Of a stretch of DNA of 64,000 nucleotides, positions 1 through 22,772 are shown one piece after another. The notes beneath the pieces were generated by a model. The model had not been told where the DNA came from and searched no databases. It saw only the letters and a list, made by a program, of their open reading frames with translations. The stretch spans positions 1-64,000 of the forward strand of contig VGFU01000007.1 of NCBI GenBank assembly GCA_016868755.1. The letters run 5' to 3'. This DNA comes from Bacteroidota bacterium. Lineage in GTDB: Bacteria; Bacteroidota; Bacteroidia; Flavobacteriales; Schleiferiaceae. Numbering within the stretch: the stretch's first letter is position 1; the number at the start of each line of letters is the position of its first letter. A program made the position numbers and the translations under genes.

Positions 1-880
1 CCACGACCAACGGATTCTCCGCCTCGAGCACGTCCCAGCGGCCGCGAAGCCCAGTATTGGCCACTACCCGCATAAGTCCGCGCCGAATTTGGTGGTCCAA
101 AAGTCGGTGCCGAGCAACCCGAGCGGCCATGATCGCGGTTCGCGCATTCTTTACCTGGTAGTCGCCCTGCAGGTCCGTCGGAAAAACTTCGTCGTGCTTG
201 CCAATCGGGTACACGTAGCAGCGGTCGAGCGAGGCCGCGACCTCCTCAAAAACGGATAGGATTTCAGAATCCGATTCACCAACGATCGCCATCACCTTCG
301 GCTTGAAGATGCCTGCTTTTTCGCGGGCGATGCTGGCGCGGTCCGGACCCAAAAAGGCCATGTGGTCGAGGCCAATGCTGGTGATTACAGACACCAGCGG
401 CGTTACGACGTTGGTGGAATCGAGGCGTCCACCCATGCCCACTTCGACCACGGCGAGGTCCACCCGCGCGTCGCGAAAGGCGGCAAAGGCCATGCCCACG
501 GTGGCTTCAAAAAAGCTCAGGTCGAGCTCTAGAATGTCAGCGCGGTGCGCGTCGACAAAGTCGGCCACCCAGCGCTCGGGGACCAACCGGCCTCCGACGC
601 GAAAGCGCTCGCGTAGGTCGAGCATGTGGGGCGAAGTGTGCAGTCCGACGACCATGCCCGCTTCGTGAAAAATGCTCGCGAGCATATGGCACGTGGATCC
701 CTTGCCGTTGGTGCCCGCCACGTGAATGCAGGGGTAGGCACGGTGGGGGTTTCCGAGTCGTTCAAGCCAAGCCTCGGTCTTGCTGAGGTCGAGTCGGTAG
801 GTTGCTGGGGTGCCGCCCTGGCGTTGAAACATGGGCAGCCGCTGGACGAGCCAGTCGCAGGCCGCGTCAAAACGGTTCAT
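1..880 (-). CDS. folC: Folylpolyglutamate synthase / dihydrofolate synthase (3' end outside window)
   Basis: The frame is open from an ATG at 880 to the left window edge, giving the first 293 residues of a protein usually about 410-430 long. It adds glutamate to folates using ATP, in the cytoplasm. The Mur-ligase-type P-loop AGTNGKGST lies at residues 55-63, followed by HTSPHMLDLRERFRV and, further on, GMGGRLDSTN and ITSIGLDHM, all family landmarks. It lies 3 bases downstream of the chimeric TonB-like gene and is probably the last gene of the exbB-exbD-tonB run; this neighbourhood is common in Flavobacteria. The C-terminal ligase domain is not visible. Confidence 0.95.
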   Translation of the reverse strand, partial: MNRFDAACDWLVQRLPMFQRQGGTPATYRLDLSKTEAWLERLGNPHRAYPCIHVAGTNGKGSTCHMLASIFHEAGMVVGLHTSPHMLDLRERFRVGGRLVPERWVADFVDAHRADILELDLSFFEATVGMAFAAFRDARVDLAVVEVGMGGRLDSTNVVTPLVSVITSIGLDHMAFLGPDRASIAREKAGIFKPKVMAIVGESDSEILSVFEEVAASLDRCYVYPIGKHDEVFPTDLQGDYQVKNARTAIMAARVARHRLLDHQIRRGLMRVVANTGLRGRWDVLEAENPLVV

Positions 881-883
881 GGC

Positions 884-2161
884 TTAAGTCCGCTGAAAAT
901 TGTAGCGAATAGTACCCACCTGAAGTTCAAGGGCCGAGGGGTCACCTTGCCAACGGGTTTTGAGGGCCGCCTCTTCGGCGCGTCGAATCAGGCATTCCTC
1001 GGAGGTCGTCGAGCCCTTTTGGCCTTGGCCGTCGGCGCGCTTTACGACACCGTTGCGATCGACATACACTTTGACGACGACCACGCCTTCACCGTCGCAA
1101 TCGTAGCGTAGCTTGGGGCGTTCTAGGGCGGACCGGGTACCCAATTGGTAATTGCCGCCGCCGGCGCCTCCGCTGCCGTTGCCTGTTCCGCTTCCGTTGG
1201 GGGAACCTTGGTCGCCGCCGCCGGTCGTGCTGCCCTGGCCGCTGCCGGTTCCGCCTTTAGTGCCTCCCGGTTTACCAAATCCTTTGAGGCGGTTGGAGAG
1301 CTCGTTCGACGGCTTGGGTGCCTGCTCGGCGGGCTTTTCGACAGGCTCTTGAACAGGAAATCCCTTCGAATTAAATGCTAAAGATGTTGGTGTGCTCTTT
1401 GATTGAGAAATTCCTCCTCGATGTACTTCATCATCAATATTTTGAAAGCTTCCGAATTGGCCGATGTTATTGAATGCATTGGTTTCAATAATATTTTGAA
1501 AGACAAGTGAATCTTCTCTTATATTGAATTTTACAATAACGTACTTTGACGGACAACAATCTGCATCAGAATTTTCCCACAAGTCTAATTTTAAAACTAA
1601 GCTTGAGTCTGAAATACTTAAAATCTCAGGTTGCCCATTATATCTTGTCTCATAATCATTGATTATATTAAAAGCACGTGGATTTAAGTTAGATATCTTA
1701 TAATTATAATTCTTAAAACTTAACAAATACAGGTCATCCCATACGGCATTCCCTCCGTTTGATACTGTTACGTTTGTAACTAACTTAAAGTCTAGTTTAG
1801 AATTCGTCTCAACTAGTTCCCAGTCATTACAGTTTACCGAGGCAATAAAAGTACGCTCTATTAAGTCTGTTGATAATTGGATATTACTGTAAATGTTGAG
1901 GCTGGAATTCTCATATACTGTGAAAACATCTGAGCTATTTATATCCAAATCTGGATTTCTAAGGATGAATTCATTTGTGAAGAAATCTTTGATTACACTT
2001 ATGGGTATTGAATATTCTTGACTTTTTGAATAGATGTTGACATACTGAGTTTCTTCCGATATATCAATTGAGTTTTGGCTGGAACAACTGAATAATGAAA
2101 TTACAAAAAGAACAGAAAAGGTTCTTATTGTGATTAATTCCAATATTATTGAAGATTTCAC
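884..2161 (-). CDS. Chimeric lipoprotein with a TonB C-terminal domain
   Basis: 425 residues from a GTG start. Residues 1-26 form a lipoprotein signal with lipobox LFSC (Cys26). Residues of about 27-265 are encoded by AT-rich DNA and match no family I recognise; the segment is rich in Asn, Ser and Ile and contains a CC pair. From about residue 266 the protein becomes Pro/Lys- then Gly-rich and ends in a TonB_C domain (about 340-425; RYDCDGEGVVVVKVYVDRNG) almost identical to the C-terminus of the TonB protein encoded just upstream. Unlike that protein it has no membrane helix and should be lipid-anchored, so its topology differs from normal TonB. The start lies 6 bases after the tonB stop, so the two are probably co-transcribed. 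A frameshift or chimera artefact is unlikely because the frame is intact for 1.28 kb. The function of the N-terminal part is unknown. Confidence 0.85.
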   Translation of the reverse strand: MKSSIILELITIRTFSVLFVISLFSCSSQNSIDISEETQYVNIYSKSQEYSIPISVIKDFFTNEFILRNPDLDINSSDVFTVYENSSLNIYSNIQLSTDLIERTFIASVNCNDWELVETNSKLDFKLVTNVTVSNGGNAVWDDLYLLSFKNYNYKISNLNPRAFNIINDYETRYNGQPEILSISDSSLVLKLDLWENSDADCCPSKYVIVKFNIREDSLVFQNIIETNAFNNIGQFGSFQNIDDEVHRGGISQSKSTPTSLAFNSKGFPVQEPVEKPAEQAPKPSNELSNRLKGFGKPGGTKGGTGSGQGSTTGGGDQGSPNGSGTGNGSGGAGGGNYQLGTRSALERPKLRYDCDGEGVVVVKVYVDRNGVVKRADGQGQKGSTTSEECLIRRAEEAALKTRWQGDPSALELQVGTIRYNFQRT

Positions 2162-2167
2162 AAAAAG

Positions 2168-2920
2168 TTATGTTCTGTTGAATTTGTAGCGAATCCAACC
2201 CACCTGAACTTCAAGGGCCTTGGGGTCACTTTGCCAGCGGGTTTTGAGGGCCGCCTCTTCGGCGCGTCGAATCAGGCATTCCTCGGAGGTAGTCGAGCCC
2301 ATTTTGCCTTTGCCGTCGGCGAGCTTTACGACACCGTTGCGATCGACATACACTTTGACGACGACCACGCCTTCACCGTCGCAGTCGTAGCGTGGCTTGG
2401 GGCGCTCGAGCACCGAGCGGTTGCCCAGATCGTAGTCGCCGGGGTTGCCGGTTCGGTCATTGCCGTTGTGGGAACCTAGGTCGCCCCCGCCGGCCGTGCT
2501 GCCTTGGCCGCCCCCGGTTCCGGTGGGGCTGCCGCCCGATTTTTTATTTTTAATATTATCCAGCGCATTCTTTAAGCGTGGGTCTTGGGGCTTATCGGCA
2601 GGTTTTTCCACGGGTTTTTCGACCGGCTTTTTGGGCTTATCGGAAACCGACGGAGCGTCCACGAAATCTTGGGTGGTAACCTCAGATTCGGCTGAAACGG
2701 GTTCTGCGGCCGACGGGGCCTCAGCACCGTCGGGGGCGGCCACGTCGTCGCCCGAGCCGTCTAGCGAATTGCCAAAACTCACGGGGATGCCATACTCGGG
2801 CGGCGGATCTTGGTACGTCAGGCCAAAAAACGCAAAGAACAGCAATAGCACGGCGTGCACCGAGAAGGTGGTCGCAAGCGCCTTGTTGCGGTCTTTTTTG
2901 TCGTGTTTTTGCTGACCCAT
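2168..2920 (-). CDS. tonB: Energy transducer TonB
   Basis: About 250 residues from ATG 2920; an in-frame TTG at 2932 is possible but less likely. It has a short basic N-terminus (MGQQKHDKKDRNK), one membrane helix at about residues 15-35, a Pro/Lys-rich periplasmic spacer (KPVEKPVEKPADKP), a Gly-rich linker and a C-terminal TonB_C domain ending WIRYKFNRT. It should carry proton-motive energy from ExbB/ExbD to outer-membrane TonB-dependent receptors, such as the SusC protein encoded at 18228. It follows exbD by 15 bases. Its last 160 codons are duplicated in the next gene downstream. Confidence 0.93.
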   Translation of the reverse strand: MGQQKHDKKDRNKALATTFSVHAVLLLFFAFFGLTYQDPPPEYGIPVSFGNSLDGSGDDVAAPDGAEAPSAAEPVSAESEVTTQDFVDAPSVSDKPKKPVEKPVEKPADKPQDPRLKNALDNIKNKKSGGSPTGTGGGQGSTAGGGDLGSHNGNDRTGNPGDYDLGNRSVLERPKPRYDCDGEGVVVVKVYVDRNGVVKLADGKGKMGSTTSEECLIRRAEEAALKTRWQSDPKALEVQVGWIRYKFNRT

Positions 2921-2935
2921 AACGGCGTACAAAAT

Positions 2936-3328
2936 TTACTTAGGGTCGGTCGCCAGCACCAACTTCAGTCGGTTGCGGTAGGCGATGTCCATAATCCGCA
3001 CCGTTTCGCCCGTAGGGACCGATTCGTCGGCGCGCAGGATTACCACGACTTCGGGGTCTTGGCTGGCCAGAGTGAGTAGCTGCGTTTCGACCTGGTCCAT
3101 GGCCACGATGTCTTCATTGACGCTCACTTGGAGGTCCTTATTAATGGTGACGGTAATCGAGGCCTTGTTGACACTCTGCGCTTTGCTTTTGGGCAAAATG
3201 ACGTCGAGCGCGCTGCTGGTTACGAGCGTCGACGTGAGCATGAAAAAGATGAGCAAGAGGAACACGAGGTCGGTCATCGACGACATGCTGAACTCCGCGC
3301 TGACCTTGCTGCGGCTGCGTAAGTTCAT
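2936..3328 (-). CDS. exbD: Biopolymer transporter ExbD/TolR family
   Basis: 130 residues from ATG 3328. There is a short cytoplasmic N-terminus, one membrane helix (about 20-38) beginning at the conserved proton-pathway Asp20 (MTDLVFLLLIFFML), then a periplasmic domain. The ending DIAYRNRLKLVLATDPK fits the ExbD family. It forms the proton channel with ExbB and drives TonB. The gene starts 2 bases after the exbB stop and ends 15 bases before tonB. Whether it serves TonB or the Tol system cannot be settled by sequence alone, but the adjacent tonB favours TonB. Confidence 0.93.
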   Translation of the reverse strand: MNLRSRSKVSAEFSMSSMTDLVFLLLIFFMLTSTLVTSSALDVILPKSKAQSVNKASITVTINKDLQVSVNEDIVAMDQVETQLLTLASQDPEVVVILRADESVPTGETVRIMDIAYRNRLKLVLATDPK

Positions 3329-3330
3329 GG

Positions 3331-4044
3331 CTAAAGCGGTTCGTGAAGGAGGTCCAGAAACTCGGTGGCGCTCACCTCCATCTTGTAAATGACGGACTCA
3401 ACCCGCATTACCAAGTAGTTGTAGGCGAAGTAGGCGATGATGCCGACGATGAGGCCCGCCACCGTCGTGGTGAGAGCGACATAGATACCTTCGGCAAGCA
3501 TGTCGACCTGAACACCCGCGCCGGCGTTTGCCATTTCGCGAAACGACAGAATCATACCGATGACGGTTCCGAGGAATCCAATCATGGGCGCTCCGCCCGC
3601 AATCGTCGCGAGGTAGGGCATGTTGCGCTCCAGCTGCTGAATTTCGAGCTTGCCTTGGTTTTCGATTGAGGCAGAAATGTCTTGCAGCGGCTTGCCGATG
3701 CGCTTGATTCCTTTGGCGATCATGCGCCCCACCGGGGTGTCGCTGCGCTCGCAGGTATTTAGGGCGGACTGCATGTTGCCGGCGGCAATGAAGTCCTTGA
3801 TGTCGCGCATGAACTTGTCGTCGAGCTTGTTGGCGCGCTGGATCGCGAGGTATCGGTCGACAAAAAGGTAGACCATGAGCACCGAGAGTGCCAGCATGGT
3901 TCCCATGATGACTTGGCCACCGATGCCCCCGGAGAACATCAGGTCAATAATCGTCATGGTTTTTTCGGTTACCACCGGTTCTGCTGGGAGGGCGCTTGTC
4001 GCGGCCTCGGCAGGCAGTTCACTTTGAAGAAAAGGCACGTTCAT
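3331..4044 (-). CDS. exbB: MotA/TolQ/ExbB proton channel family protein
   Basis: 237 residues from ATG 4044. It has an N-terminal extension, one membrane helix at about 45-66, a cytoplasmic loop with NTCERSDTPVGRMIAKGI, then two further helices (about 140-165 and 185-210). IAGGAPMIGFLGTVIGMI and ALTTTVAGLIVGI are typical of the channel core. It is the proton channel partner of ExbD. First gene of the minus-strand exbB-exbD-tonB-chimera-folC unit. The upstream region (4045-4100) holds a poor match to the Bacteroidota -7 element, TGTATTTG, about 28 bases before the start. Confidence 0.94.
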   Translation of the reverse strand: MNVPFLQSELPAEAATSALPAEPVVTEKTMTIIDLMFSGGIGGQVIMGTMLALSVLMVYLFVDRYLAIQRANKLDDKFMRDIKDFIAAGNMQSALNTCERSDTPVGRMIAKGIKRIGKPLQDISASIENQGKLEIQQLERNMPYLATIAGGAPMIGFLGTVIGMILSFREMANAGAGVQVDMLAEGIYVALTTTVAGLIVGIIAYFAYNYLVMRVESVIYKMEVSATEFLDLLHEPL

Positions 4045-16730: not shown

Positions 16731-18121
16731 GCGGACGCGCCGGCCGTTGGGCGGCAATCGTCCTAGCGGTTGCCACAGGAACCGCGGTGGCGCTCGAGGC
16801 ATATGCCGTGGCCGCCGTGCCGTTTGCCCTGGCCGTCGTTTTGTGGGCGCTGTACCACATTGAGAGCTTGCTCCTGGCTGTAGTGGCGCTCACGCCCCTT
16901 TCGATCACGCTCAAGGAATCCGACTTCAACCTCGGGCTCAGCCTGCCCGGCGAAGTGCTCTTGGCCGGCCTCACGTTTTTTGCGCTTGTTCGCTTTCTCC
17001 ACCAAGGTCGGGTGCCTTGGCCCATCCTCAAGCAGCCGCTCACGGTGGTCATACTGCTTCAGCTCGTGTGGATGGCGTTCACGGTGCTCTTCAGCGAAAT
17101 GCCCCTGGTCAGCTTCAAGGCTGTGCTGAGTCGGCTGTGGTTTTTGGTGCCGATGTACTTCATGCTGGGAACGGCTTTTGAACGTCCGTGGGCGCGCCAG
17201 CTGGTTTTTCCGCTCTACGCGTTTAGCTTGGCCGTTGCAGCGCTGTGGACGCTGTATGTGCATTCCCAGTACGGATTTTCGAAGGAGACCTCGACCTGGG
17301 TCATGTTTCCGCTTTATAAGGAGCACACCGTGTACGGCATGGCGCTGGCCTTTGTCTTCCCATGGTCCGTGTGGGCACTCACCCGGCCGCAGTCCTTGTT
17401 CTCGCGCTTGGTGCACCTCGGACTTTGGTCCTTGCTGACCGTAGCCTTAGTTTTTTCGTACACGCGGGCGGCTTGGCTGAGTCTGGCGGCCGCTGGTGCC
17501 GTTTACCTGGTGTTTGCGTGGCGGATTTCGGCGCGGCAAATCGCGCTGATTGCGCTGCTCGGCCTTGGCGCCCTGTGGGCCACGCAGGACCAGTGGATTC
17601 GCGTGTTTACCAAGAACGACACGGTCTCGAGCGACAACTTTAGCGAGCACATCCAGAGCGCCTCCAACATTTCGACCGATGCGTCCAACCTCGAGCGGCT
17701 CAACCGCTGGGCTTCGGCGCTACGCATGTGGCAAGAGCGGCCGCATACAGGCTGGGGCTTAGGCACCTACCAGTTTCAGTACGCCCCCTTTCAGCACTCC
17801 TCGCAGCTGACCATCATCTCCACCAACGCGGGCGATTTGGGCAACGCGCACTCCGAATACATCGGCCCTCTTGCGGAGCAGGGCTGGCCCGGCCTTGTGC
17901 TGGTTGCGGCGCTGCTTTTCGTGCTCTTTCGCACCGGATCACGTGCCTACCGACGCATGCCGCAAGGGGAAGACCGCAGCGTGCTTTTAGTCGCGATTCT
18001 GGGTCTGGTCACCTACTGGGTGCACGGAGTGCTTAACAATTTCTTAGACCTTGATAAGGGGGCCGTGCTCGTGTGGATGAGCGCCGCCTTGGTGGCTTGG
18101 GCGGACCGGAGGGAAGGTTAG
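16697..18121 (+). CDS. O-antigen ligase/polymerase family membrane protein
   Basis: 474 residues from ATG 16697, overlapping the Wzz-like gene by 34 bases in another frame. It is very hydrophobic with about 11 membrane helices and one large periplasmic loop. The loop and its flank (RLNRWASALRMWQERPHTGWGLGTYQ) match the O-antigen ligase (Wzy_C) domain, where a 'P..G.G...' segment follows an Arg-rich helix. It could be the Wzy polymerase or a WaaL-type ligase; co-location with flippase and co-polymerase favours polymerase. It is the last gene of the four-gene polysaccharide operon. Confidence 0.9.
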   Translation: MEGAQGKASVLSGRAGRWAAIVLAVATGTAVALEAYAVAAVPFALAVVLWALYHIESLLLAVVALTPLSITLKESDFNLGLSLPGEVLLAGLTFFALVRFLHQGRVPWPILKQPLTVVILLQLVWMAFTVLFSEMPLVSFKAVLSRLWFLVPMYFMLGTAFERPWARQLVFPLYAFSLAVAALWTLYVHSQYGFSKETSTWVMFPLYKEHTVYGMALAFVFPWSVWALTRPQSLFSRLVHLGLWSLLTVALVFSYTRAAWLSLAAAGAVYLVFAWRISARQIALIALLGLGALWATQDQWIRVFTKNDTVSSDNFSEHIQSASNISTDASNLERLNRWASALRMWQERPHTGWGLGTYQFQYAPFQHSSQLTIISTNAGDLGNAHSEYIGPLAEQGWPGLVLVAALLFVLFRTGSRAYRRMPQGEDRSVLLVAILGLVTYWVHGVLNNFLDLDKGAVLVWMSAALVAWADRREG

Positions 18122-18227
18122 ATTGTTCCTTGAGCTCTTGAGTGAGCTTCATGTCATTTTTTATTTTCTTCAATCCAAACGGAAAAAATGACTATCTTGA
18201 GTTCACTTTAACAATTCATTAACACTT
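18122..18227 (+). promoter_or_regulatory. Upstream region of the SusC/SusD operon
   Basis: 106 AT-rich bases with no gene. TATCTTGA at 18193-18200 is an imperfect -7 element 27 bases before the susC ATG, and a T-rich run (about 18153-18172) lies upstream. No strong terminator for the preceding gene is visible. Confidence 0.4.
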
Positions 18228-21200
18228 ATGAAACGCAGAACAACTTTTTTTGCTTTTGTTGCAGCGGCCCTACTGTCCGTGTCTGCCTTTGCGCAGCGCA
18301 CGGTTTCCGGTACGGTCACCGATGCAGCTTCGGGCGAAGCCCTACCCTCGGTATCGGTCCGGGTCAAGGGAACTAATGTAGCTACGGTTACAAATTTTGA
18401 AGGGAAATACTCCATTTCAGCGGCTGACAAGTCAGTAATTGTCTTTTCGGCTGTAGGTTATTCAGGACAAGAAGCTACCGCGACAGGTGCCCAACTGAAC
18501 GTAAAACTCGTACCTCAAGTTACTCGCTTGGATGACGTTGTCGTTACGGCTGGTGGAGTAGCGAAGCAGCGTCGAGCGTTAGGTTTTGGGGTCGAAGAGA
18601 TCAAAGGATCGGCGGTAAAGTCTTCCGGCGAATCCAACATCATTTCGGGTCTTTCTGCGCGCGTCAGCGGGGTCCAAGTGACCAACTCTTCAGGTGCTTC
18701 CGGTGCTGCCTCGTACATTAAGATTCGCGGCAATGCGACCTTCACGTCCAGTGACAACCAGCCGCTAATTGTAGTTGATGGGGTTCCTATCGACAACTCC
18801 ATGACGAATACCGAGGACCTTCGCGCAGGGGTTGCGTATTCCAATCGCGCGATGGATATCAACCCTGACGACATCGAGAACATTTCGGTACTTAAGGGTG
18901 GAGCTGCTGCAGCATTGTACGGAACGCGTGGGGCCAACGGGGTAATCTTAATTACTACAAAAAAGGGCGCTTACGGTCAAGCATTCCGTGTTGACGTGAA
19001 TTCGTCCATGGAGATCACGGAAGTCAACAAGCTTCCTTCACTGCAAACAAAGTACAGCCAAGGGCTTGGTGGGGTGTACCGAGGAGGAACCTCATCTCCA
19101 TTCTCATGGGGCCCGGCCCTTTCAGAACTAGGTTATGATGCGCAAGGAACGATTGTTCAAGATCCCGCGCTATTCGCGGGTCCTGCAGGTGTCACCCCGT
19201 ATGATCAATACGCCTTTTTTAAGCGCGGCATGCGATTGAATAACTCGGTTACGGTATCGGGCGGTACCGACAGGGCAACCTATTACCTCTCAGTTTCGAA
19301 TCTTGCCGACGAAGGAATTATTCCACTTAACCGTTTTGATCGTACGACCGTTCGTATGACAGGATCAGGACAGATTACACGCAAGCTTAAAGCGACTGGT
19401 TCTTTGGCGTACACCTCCTCAGGGGGTTATCGCGTGCAGCAGGGATCCAATATTTCTGGACTCATGTTGGGCCTCCTTCGCACTCCTCCGAGTTTTGATA
19501 ATTCCGATGGATATGAAAAACCAGATGGGACGCAACGCAACTATCGCAACGGTGGCGGATACGACAATCCATACTGGACTGTGAATAAGAACCCATTTCA
19601 GGACAAAGTATCTCGTACGTTCGGTTACGTCCAGATGGATTATGCCCCTTCGGACAAGTTGTTGATCAACTATCGAGTGGGTCTAGATGCCTATAGTGAC
19701 GTTCGTACCCAGATTATGGCCAAATACAGCCGCTCTCTGCCGGTTGGTAGTATTTACAACGACAACTACAATTGGGAGGAGTTGAACCAAGATCTAACGG
19801 CGCGATACACCGACAAGTTTGGCGACCTCGGATTGAGTGCAATGGCCGGATTTAACACGAACCAGCGCCAACTTCGCAACGTTTGGGGATTTGGTTCAGG
19901 ACTAGTAATTCCAGACTTCTACAACATGTCCAACGCCACGAGCCAGCAGACGGGCGAAGGAATTACCCGTCGTCGCATCTGGGGCATGTACGGTGAAGCG
20001 ACCTTGGATTACAAAAGCTATCTGTACTTAACCCTCACCGCACGCAGAGACCAGGCATCGACATTTGGTAATGTGGGTACCACCATTTTATATCCTTCAG
20101 CAAGCCTTGGTCTTGTGATGACGGACGCGCTGAACATTAAGAGCGACGTACTGAGCTTCTGGAAGTTAAGAGCAAGCCAAGCGAAAGTTGGTATTGAGCC
20201 CAGCTTTGCTTCTAACGCTACTTACTTTAACCGAACCTCAGTGGGCTCCGGTTGGGTAACGGGGTTGGACTTCCCATTTATGGGTCAGACAGGGTTCACC
20301 TACAGCAATACTCTAGGCAACGAAGGCTTGACTCCTGAGTTCACGGTAACATCTGAAATTGGTACCGAGTTCCGCTTGTTCAAAGATCGACTGAACCTTG
20401 ATCTCACCTACTACAACCAGGAATCGCGTGACTTGATCATCGCCGTTCCCGTTGCTGGTTCAACTGGATTCACCTCAGCTTTTGTAAATGCTGGTACCAT
20501 GTACAACCGAGGAATTGAACTGGTCGTTGGTGCGGATTTAATAAAGACCGACGATCTTACGTGGAATGCAGGGTTGACCTACACGAGGAACAGGAACAAG
20601 GTTACCGCGCTTGCACCAGGTGTCGACGTGATTTCGCTTCCGTGGGGATTCTTTGGTGCTAACCAACGCCTTATGGTGGGCCAAGCTTACGGAACGCTAT
20701 ACGGTGATGACTGGGAGCGCAACGAAAACGGGACTCCCCTGGTGGACGAGTTTGGTTACCCGATTTACAGTTCGACCGAGGTTGTGGTTGGAGACCCAAA
20801 CCCTGATTTCTTACTGGGCGTAAACAACGACATTCGGTACAAGAATTTCAGCTTTAACATGCTCTGGGACATTCGTCAGGGCGGAGACATCTGGAACGGT
20901 ACACGCGGCGCGTTATACTATTTCGGAACCCATGGCGACACCGAATTGATGATTGACAGCCAAGGAAACGAAGTGGAGCGCGGCGAGAACTTTGTCTGGT
21001 ACGACGCAGTTAGCGGTACGAATGGGGTTTACGCGCCGGGTACGACCATTAATAACGTGGATGTGAGCGGTCAACCGAACACAACGCCCATTTTGCATGA
21101 CTTCGACTCCTACGCTAACGGTCCCTTAAGTGGATTTACTGGCGCATCCCGTCCGTTCATTGAAGATGGAAGCTGGATTCGACTCCGCCAAATTGGGGTC

Positions 21201-21410
21201 AGCTACACATTGCCCGAAAAACTCCTCGCTGGCTCAGGGTTCAAAGGCCTTAGCCTCGGAGTCCAGGGTCGCAACTTGTGGTTGAGCACGCCCTACACGG
21301 GAGTAGACCCAGAAACGAACCTCTCCGGAGCAACGAATAGCCAAGGTGCGGATTACTTCAATATGCCGAATACTAAGGGTTACATCTTCACGCTAAAGGC
21401 AAATTTTTAA
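18228..21410 (+). CDS. SusC/RagA family TonB-dependent outer-membrane receptor
   Basis: 1060 residues. A signal peptide (about 1-22, ending AFAQ) is followed by a carboxypeptidase-like regulatory domain (about 23-105; TVSGTVTDAASGEALPSVSV). Next come a plug domain (about 110-230; ISVLKGGAAAALYGTRGANG) and a 22-strand-type barrel ending KGYIFTLKANF. It should import a nutrient (often glycan or peptide) across the outer membrane with energy from ExbBD-TonB, forming a complex with the SusD-like lipoprotein encoded 12 bases later. The DNA is near 50% GC, lower than its neighbours. The substrate is unknown, as no glycoside hydrolase or regulator lies beside it. Confidence 0.96.
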   Translation: MKRRTTFFAFVAAALLSVSAFAQRTVSGTVTDAASGEALPSVSVRVKGTNVATVTNFEGKYSISAADKSVIVFSAVGYSGQEATATGAQLNVKLVPQVTRLDDVVVTAGGVAKQRRALGFGVEEIKGSAVKSSGESNIISGLSARVSGVQVTNSSGASGAASYIKIRGNATFTSSDNQPLIVVDGVPIDNSMTNTEDLRAGVAYSNRAMDINPDDIENISVLKGGAAAALYGTRGANGVILITTKKGAYGQAFRVDVNSSMEITEVNKLPSLQTKYSQGLGGVYRGGTSSPFSWGPALSELGYDAQGTIVQDPALFAGPAGVTPYDQYAFFKRGMRLNNSVTVSGGTDRATYYLSVSNLADEGIIPLNRFDRTTVRMTGSGQITRKLKATGSLAYTSSGGYRVQQGSNISGLMLGLLRTPPSFDNSDGYEKPDGTQRNYRNGGGYDNPYWTVNKNPFQDKVSRTFGYVQMDYAPSDKLLINYRVGLDAYSDVRTQIMAKYSRSLPVGSIYNDNYNWEELNQDLTARYTDKFGDLGLSAMAGFNTNQRQLRNVWGFGSGLVIPDFYNMSNATSQQTGEGITRRRIWGMYGEATLDYKSYLYLTLTARRDQASTFGNVGTTILYPSASLGLVMTDALNIKSDVLSFWKLRASQAKVGIEPSFASNATYFNRTSVGSGWVTGLDFPFMGQTGFTYSNTLGNEGLTPEFTVTSEIGTEFRLFKDRLNLDLTYYNQESRDLIIAVPVAGSTGFTSAFVNAGTMYNRGIELVVGADLIKTDDLTWNAGLTYTRNRNKVTALAPGVDVISLPWGFFGANQRLMVGQAYGTLYGDDWERNENGTPLVDEFGYPIYSSTEVVVGDPNPDFLLGVNNDIRYKNFSFNMLWDIRQGGDIWNGTRGALYYFGTHGDTELMIDSQGNEVERGENFVWYDAVSGTNGVYAPGTTINNVDVSGQPNTTPILHDFDSYANGPLSGFTGASRPFIEDGSWIRLRQIGVSYTLPEKLLAGSGFKGLSLGVQGRNLWLSTPYTGVDPETNLSGATNSQGADYFNMPNTKGYIFTLKANF

Positions 21411-21422
21411 CAACTACGTGTC

Positions 21423-22772
21423 ATGAAAAAATTATTTTTAATTTCCTTGTTCGCAGCCGGGATCTTCACGGTCTCGTGCACTGATGAATGGCTTGAAGCC
21501 TATAAACTTGACCCCACACGTCCCAGTGATGCGCCAATGAGTACGCTATTGCCCTCGGCGCAAGCTTCGTACGCGTTTGTGCAAGGTGACGTCCTGCCGC
21601 GTCTAACGTCCATTTTTGTTCAGCAAATGACCGGAATTGACCGTCAGTCATTGGCGCATACTCGGTATGCACAAATAGGCGAAGGTGACTTCGACACTCC
21701 GTGGGAGAATGCCTACGCGGGAGGAATGTACGATTTGAAAATCGTTATCGAAAAGGCAAATGCCCTTGATGCTCCAGCATACGCAGGTGTAGCCAAGATC
21801 ATGACGGCCATGTACCTCGGTACGCTGACCGATCATTTTGGTGATATTCCCTATGAAGAGGCACTTCAAGGTTCCGACAATTTCAAACCCGCATTCCAGA
21901 GTCAAGAGCAGATCTATGGGGTAATCGCAACGTTGCTACAGGAGGGCGTGACAGATCTTGACAAGCCAAGTACCCTTAAGCCAACGAGTGACGATTTAAT
22001 CCATCAAGGAGATCTTGCAAAGTGGAAAGCGACAGCCGCTGCTCTAGGCGCAAGGTACTTGAACCACTTGTCGAAGAAGTCGACATATAATCCTGCCAAT
22101 GTAATTGCTGCAGCCAATCTGGCACTGTCGACGGGCGCCACGACGGAAATTCCCTTCCAATCCGAAGCACAGAATCAAAATCCATGGCACCAGTTTACCG
22201 TGATTGATCGCGACGGATACATTTCCCAACATGGAACCATGTTTAATATCATGCGTGCCAAGAACGATCCACGGTTGACGGTTTACCGTTCCTCGGATTC
22301 TGCTTACTTGCCATTCTATGGAGCGGCAACCGCTAAGCTGCCGATCATCACGAATCATGAAGTTCTGTTCATCAAAGCAGAAGCGCTTCAAAGGGCAGGT
22401 CAAACGGCGGATGCGCGCAGTGCTCTCGAAGATGCCATTTTATCGAATATGGCATATTTGGGCGTTAGCGCCACAGACGCGGCCTCTTATGTAGCAACAC
22501 TTCCAGCAACGACCAACCTTGAGTTGATCATGAATGAAAAGTACGTGGCAATGTTCACGCACGTCGAAGCTTGGACCGATTGGCGTCGAACTGGATATCC
22601 TGCAATTTCAGCTCCCTCAGGGGCGAACTTGTCCGATGTTCCGCGCCGGATGCCGTACCCTCAAGGTGAATACCTATACAATTCCGCAAACGTTCCTATG
22701 CCATTGACGTCAACCCCTGACGAGAAGTTTGGGGTTGAGCCTACCTACAGAGTGTGGTGGGATAAGAACTAA
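21423..22772 (+). CDS. SusD/RagB-like nutrient-binding outer-membrane lipoprotein
   Basis: 449 residues. The lipobox is in FTVSC (Cys19), followed by the acidic start TDEWLEAYKLDP. The body is alpha-helical with TPR-like segments. YKLDPTRPSDAPMSTLLPS, MTAMYLGTLTDHFGDIPYEEAL and the C-terminal RRMPYPQGEYLYN match the SusD-like group 2 (SusD_RagB nutrient-binding) pattern. It should act as the surface lid of the SusC channel. A strong terminator follows, so susC-susD form a closed two-gene operon. Confidence 0.95.
   Translation: MKKLFLISLFAAGIFTVSCTDEWLEAYKLDPTRPSDAPMSTLLPSAQASYAFVQGDVLPRLTSIFVQQMTGIDRQSLAHTRYAQIGEGDFDTPWENAYAGGMYDLKIVIEKANALDAPAYAGVAKIMTAMYLGTLTDHFGDIPYEEALQGSDNFKPAFQSQEQIYGVIATLLQEGVTDLDKPSTLKPTSDDLIHQGDLAKWKATAAALGARYLNHLSKKSTYNPANVIAAANLALSTGATTEIPFQSEAQNQNPWHQFTVIDRDGYISQHGTMFNIMRAKNDPRLTVYRSSDSAYLPFYGAATAKLPIITNHEVLFIKAEALQRAGQTADARSALEDAILSNMAYLGVSATDAASYVATLPATTNLELIMNEKYVAMFTHVEAWTDWRRTGYPAISAPSGANLSDVPRRMPYPQGEYLYNSANVPMPLTSTPDEKFGVEPTYRVWWDKN

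Follow-up and report, generated by a model that had tools for sequence, protein, structure and literature searches.

The operon considered here is located at the start of contig C7 of one uncultured Bacteroidota draft MAG (1.62-Mb, 70 contigs), and the window, that is, the whole 64-kb stretch of DNA that was analyzed, begins with that contig. ORFs and synteny place the genes on the minus strand in the order exbB, exbD, tonB, chimera and folC. The two motor subunit genes, exbB (3331..4044, with synteny in 11 relatives of the genus) and exbD (2936..3328), precede tonB (2168..2932), and the chimeric ORF (884..2161) starts 6 bases past the tonB stop codon and ends 3 bases ahead of the folC ATG, 0.9 kb from the contig end. 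Only the 5′ part of folC is present (1..880), with the first 293 of ~422 codons ended by the contig end; the codons beyond 293 are absent from all other parts of the assembly. The genome has just one PF03544-positive TonB, encoded separately on a different contig (G000:C1:84124-84348), which makes the TonB between exbBD and folC a second, divergent one. The relatives used for comparison are MAGs labelled Cryomorphaceae, Schleiferiaceae or Flavobacteriales. Elsewhere in the window, a TonB-dependent receptor plug is encoded at 18591-18944 within an open frame of 1069 aa, and the region 18000-22500 around it has a GC content of ~50%, below that of its surroundings.

The chimeric ORF has 425 codons and a GTG start, and is composed of a lipoprotein signal, an N-terminal part of 31% GC, a Pro/Gly linker and a C-terminal domain of TonB fold. 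The hydrophobic N-terminus (2084..2161) closes with FVISLFSC at Cys26 (2084-2086) and is followed by CSSQNS; the Phe at position −2 is unusual. Hydropathy and residue inspection thus give a hydrophobic signal, a lipobox cysteine and a single membrane segment, with no transmembrane-like stretch past the signal in the chimera (maximum 19-aa hydropathy 0.63). In Bacteroidetes, surface lipoproteins carry an acidic export signal directly after the cysteine (PMC5080379). No such signal was found after the cysteine of the chimera (C-SSQNS, no acidic pair), and its absence makes an outer-membrane lipoprotein on the periplasmic face the likeliest predicted location. The anchor of a TonB, with its SxHxxL-type ExbBD motif, is absent from the chimera and the lipoprotein signal stands in its place. 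The first-pass annotation had proposed a lipobox at Cys26, a Pro/Gly linker leading into a TonB C-terminal domain and, as their sum, a lipid-anchored TonB C-domain; the first two are present, and the last, without a motor-binding transmembrane segment, is indeed what the ORF encodes.

An AT-rich, foreign-looking stretch of ~31% GC (1350..2185, minus strand, edges approximate) accounts for the first ~265 codons of the chimera, in which the three codon positions have 34/32/28% GC. The GC content shifts abruptly at both edges to flanks of 53-66%; the remaining window lies at 48-69%, and no other 500-base step in its 64 kb falls below 48%. For a frame to stay open over 265 codons, P is ~3e-10 in random sequence of equal composition; Markov simulations matched it in 0 of 20000 runs, and the other frames reach at most 60 codons. 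The low-GC part is therefore coding rather than a chance open frame.

LppP/LprE lipoproteins (PF14041) are known from mycobacteria. The second half of this profile finds a weak match in the chimera at 1511..1648, in a stretch containing a CCPS motif (E 6e-5); the score is 23.5 bits against a cut-off of 25, and the match covers profile positions 42-87 of 87 only. A genome search gave 25.0 bits, with a match in 1 of 395 Bacteroidota genomes, namely that of the chimera. The N-terminal part resembles the family in being a lipoprotein with a CCPS-containing stretch that weakly fits the second half of the profile, but differs in covering only half of it and in falling just under the cut-off in the library scan. 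No relative was found among 99 relatives, 396 genomes of the order, phages, plasmids and IMG/VR viral contigs, or in a close-relative scan of 85k GTDB species. The phage and defence families of PHROGs and PADLOC gave nothing significant, solved structures gave no match, and a structure predicted with no alignment was of low quality (pLDDT 35). The weak PF14041 half-match aside, the N-terminal part is an orphan in all collections searched, as its description as unrecognised had anticipated.

The C-terminal part consists of a Pro/Gly linker (1154..1342, residues 274-336), delimited by comparison with relatives, and a domain (887..1153, residues 337-425) whose modelled fold was compared with TonB domains. 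The domain scores below curated cut-offs for both TonB profiles (PF03544, 13.7 of 24.6 bits; TIGR01352, 15.5 of 27.1 bits), and the TonBs of relatives at the exbBD-folC locus are likewise divergent; this subgroup carries two almost invariant cysteines. A model built from 31 relatives reached a pLDDT of 86, and the top 12 PDB matches from Foldseek are all TonB/FusB C-terminal domains (probability 0.94-1.00, E 0.005-0.11). The TonB identity of the domain is therefore taken from the agreement of fold and synteny and not from the profile score, and on the modelled structure the assignment to the TonB fold, in a divergent subgroup, holds.

A comparison with relatives indicates which of the two TonB C-parts belongs to the locus. 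The order exbB-exbD-tonB-folC, which had been called conserved, is confirmed, but the chimera is no part of it: tonB directly adjoins folC in 25 of 25 relatives of the order in which both genes were recognised. The insert is absent from 11 of 11 genus relatives and no sampled relative has the chimera between tonB and folC, which rules out an extra gene of a conserved operon; a search for the same fusion in related genomes, as had been suggested, accordingly found none. The distance from the tonB stop codon to the GTNGKG motif of folC is 156-171 nt in the 25 relatives, and that from the chimera stop codon is 169 nt. The last 160 residues of the chimera are 91% identical to the TonB of G018, the closest relative. 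Its C-part had been described as nearly identical to the adjacent TonB, yet the identity to that protein is 71% over the whole C-part and 82% over the last ~97 aa, versus 91-95% to G018 across both ranges. Between chimera and G018, dN is 0.01-0.03 and dS is 1-1.9, values that point to strong purifying selection. The upstream TonB is 89% identical to that of G018 up to about residue 94 and 72% beyond, so the gene first taken as the true tonB is so only in its N-half (2639..2920, residues 1-94 from the ATG of MGQQKH), which carries the transmembrane anchor and the SxHxxL-type motif (FSVHAVLL); its C-half (2171..2638), comprising linker and C-terminal domain, is a replacement. Taken together, the identities to G018 and the position beside folC indicate that the chimera holds the native tonB 3′ half and that the full-length tonB is a hybrid with a replacement. 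They also rule out a wholly native upstream tonB of which the chimera tail would be a copy.

The joints between native and foreign parts coincide with a short direct repeat. Two copies of GTCGAAAA, each with A/G-CCCG after it, lie at 2611-2623 and 1330-1342 with a spacing of 1281 bp or 427 codons, and the minus strand of the 4.2-kb stretch has no others. GTCGAAAAACCCG (2611..2623) is the proposed left crossover site and GTCGAAAAGCCCG (1330..1342), which is the same as the native G018 sequence, the proposed right one; a crossover at the GTCGAAAA repeats would explain both junctions. The insert between them (~1343-2623) contains the replacement tonB linker and C-domain and the AT-rich lipoprotein ORF, with nothing more recognisable and no integrase, recombinase or other mobility gene. 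As read from the alignments, then, tonB, elsewhere native, contains a segment of ~1281 bp with GTCGAAAA direct repeats at its bounds; the segment's replacement C-half is joined to the native N-half, so that tonB remains a full-length gene, and the segment's lipoprotein ORF continues in frame into the displaced native C-half, which still adjoins folC. An exact match of 35 bp had pointed to a G011-like sequence (L008) as the source of the replacement linker; the match is no more than suggestive, as L008 also reaches 35 bp, at its longest, in the conserved exbBD part.

We consider it probable that the locus is the scar of a recombination inside tonB, with the fusion being mostly a tolerated by-product. 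The segment would have entered by recombination at the short repeat GTCGAAAARCCCG, and homology-facilitated illegitimate recombination is a candidate mechanism. The entering molecule could have been a circular intermediate in a Campbell-type event, as with e14 in icd, or linear DNA taken up by transformation and homologous on one side only. Against this reading stand the lack of a mobility gene in the insert and the uneven divergence of the two copies. The chimera would then probably be expressed along with the rest of the operon, receive its lipid and stay on the periplasmic side of the outer membrane, the lipoprotein carrying a TonB tail that acts at most as a weak, passive binder of TonB boxes. 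A crossover between the direct repeats could remove it again.

The nearest precedent for this layout, by analogy, is prophage e14 in icd of Escherichia coli, which supplies a new 3′ end to the gene and leaves a displaced fragment of 163 bp (PMC6379469). In both cases an insert within a host gene brings a replacement 3′ end, and the original one is displaced as a duplicate fragment. The tonB insert differs in its size of ~1.3 kb, in its single ORF, in the absence of an integrase, in replacing ~470 bp rather than 163 bp, and in the in-frame fusion of the displaced end to cargo. The resulting protein also has parallels. Its linker and C-domain are those of a native exbB-exbD-tonB-folC TonB, in fold as in identity, but it has a lipoprotein N-part instead of the transmembrane anchor and ExbBD motif. 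TonB_C proteins with signal peptides occur elsewhere in the sampled Bacteroidota (L075, L087, L093, L096); one further example from another genome (L107, G435:C9:900-2500) has ~420 aa, a LAGC lipobox, a strong C-terminal PF03544 match and an N-part without a Pfam match. Such proteins share with the chimera a TonB-like domain ending a long protein whose anchor has been replaced. They clear the PF03544 cut-off easily, however, and their N-parts are unrelated to that of the chimera, which arose recently by fusion to the TonB tail of the same cell. As both halves of the story have known parallels, the new part is the in-frame union with a displaced native tail.

Could the fusion have been selected? 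Force transmission by TonB needs the binding of ExbBD through its membrane helix (PMC12204202), and the C-domain of TonB binds receptors by pairing with their TonB box (PMC11658791). Lacking the ExbBD-binding anchor, the chimera would not transmit force; in principle it would keep TonB-box pairing while losing ExbBD binding. A selected outer-membrane lipoprotein could thus act as a decoy or adaptor on TonB boxes or plug domains, and would limit TonB-dependent transport or block phages or bacteriocins that use it. The 18-20 TonB-dependent receptors with plug domains in the genome are possible targets, and the secreted or lipobox-bearing TonB_C proteins of other Bacteroidota count in its favor. 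The frame is intact through both parts and, since the two copies split, the tonB copy has accumulated 10 aa changes in the C-terminal block and the chimera none; an intact frame and an unchanged native C-part are equally expected of a selected fusion. The asymmetry, however, is explained equally well if the chimera domain served in a functional TonB until its recent displacement and the replacement evolved elsewhere in the meantime. Phage and defence families, moreover, gave no match, and the fusion occurs in one genome only. With one genome to go by and no sign that the junction is conserved, a by-product of recombination is rated likelier and is favored over a decoy or adaptor, and we consider the selected protein, its proposed purpose included, unlikely.

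The likeness of the two copies over their last ~73 codons suggests another possible origin, in which the native tonB 3′ half was duplicated in tandem and the copies then diverged. In that case the chimera would keep the ancestral C-domain, that of the full-length TonB would have changed, and the AT-rich lipoprotein ORF would have come between the copies. Indeed, copy 1 (2168..2441) and copy 2 (884..1157) form direct repeats, both on the minus strand, that are 87% identical and include exact stretches of 61 and 53 bp, and their last ~73 codons, with the 61-bp stretch, have common synonymous codons and a dS of 0.16. The linkers, on the other hand, differ by a dS of 0.97 plus indels, which is too much for one recent duplication. 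The contrast between tail and linkers implies a mosaic history of more than one step, and a duplication with these later events is doubtful in our judgement.

An assembly artefact, in which the assembler combined tonB alleles from two strains with an unrelated AT-rich fragment, would fit a locus at 0.9 kb from a contig end, with folC cut, in a draft of 70 contigs, and the 61- and 53-bp exact repeats between the copies can mislead short-read assembly. The lipoprotein-linker junction (~1330-1372), however, is not covered by the exact repeats, so that a misjoin driven by them would not produce the fusion, which moreover is in frame across the junction. We regard an artefact as quite improbable; the product of recombination looks real, in one genome so far. 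Least probable, and very much so, is a cassette for trading TonB tails, reversible through the repeats, which would give tonB a new receptor-binding domain and keep the old one as a lipid-anchored competitor; if true, TonB specificity would be switchable, or agents entering through TonB-dependent receptors would be blocked.

The scar of a recombination inside tonB, as the favored reading, also bears on the working TonB of the cell. The 10 changes in its C-terminal block fall at genus-conserved sites (within 2171-2638), some near the last strand (e.g., T to W, S to K and Q to N), and its receptor preference may therefore now differ. The locus clearly illustrates that an insertion can mend the very gene it enters and, at the same time, turn the displaced end into part of a novel fusion protein. 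Should the fusion prove functional, nature would have provided a test of whether transport is disturbed by a motor-free TonB C-domain tethered to the outer membrane. Should it prove non-functional, it would caution that apparent "lipoprotein-TonB" proteins of draft genomes may arise as by-products of recombination.
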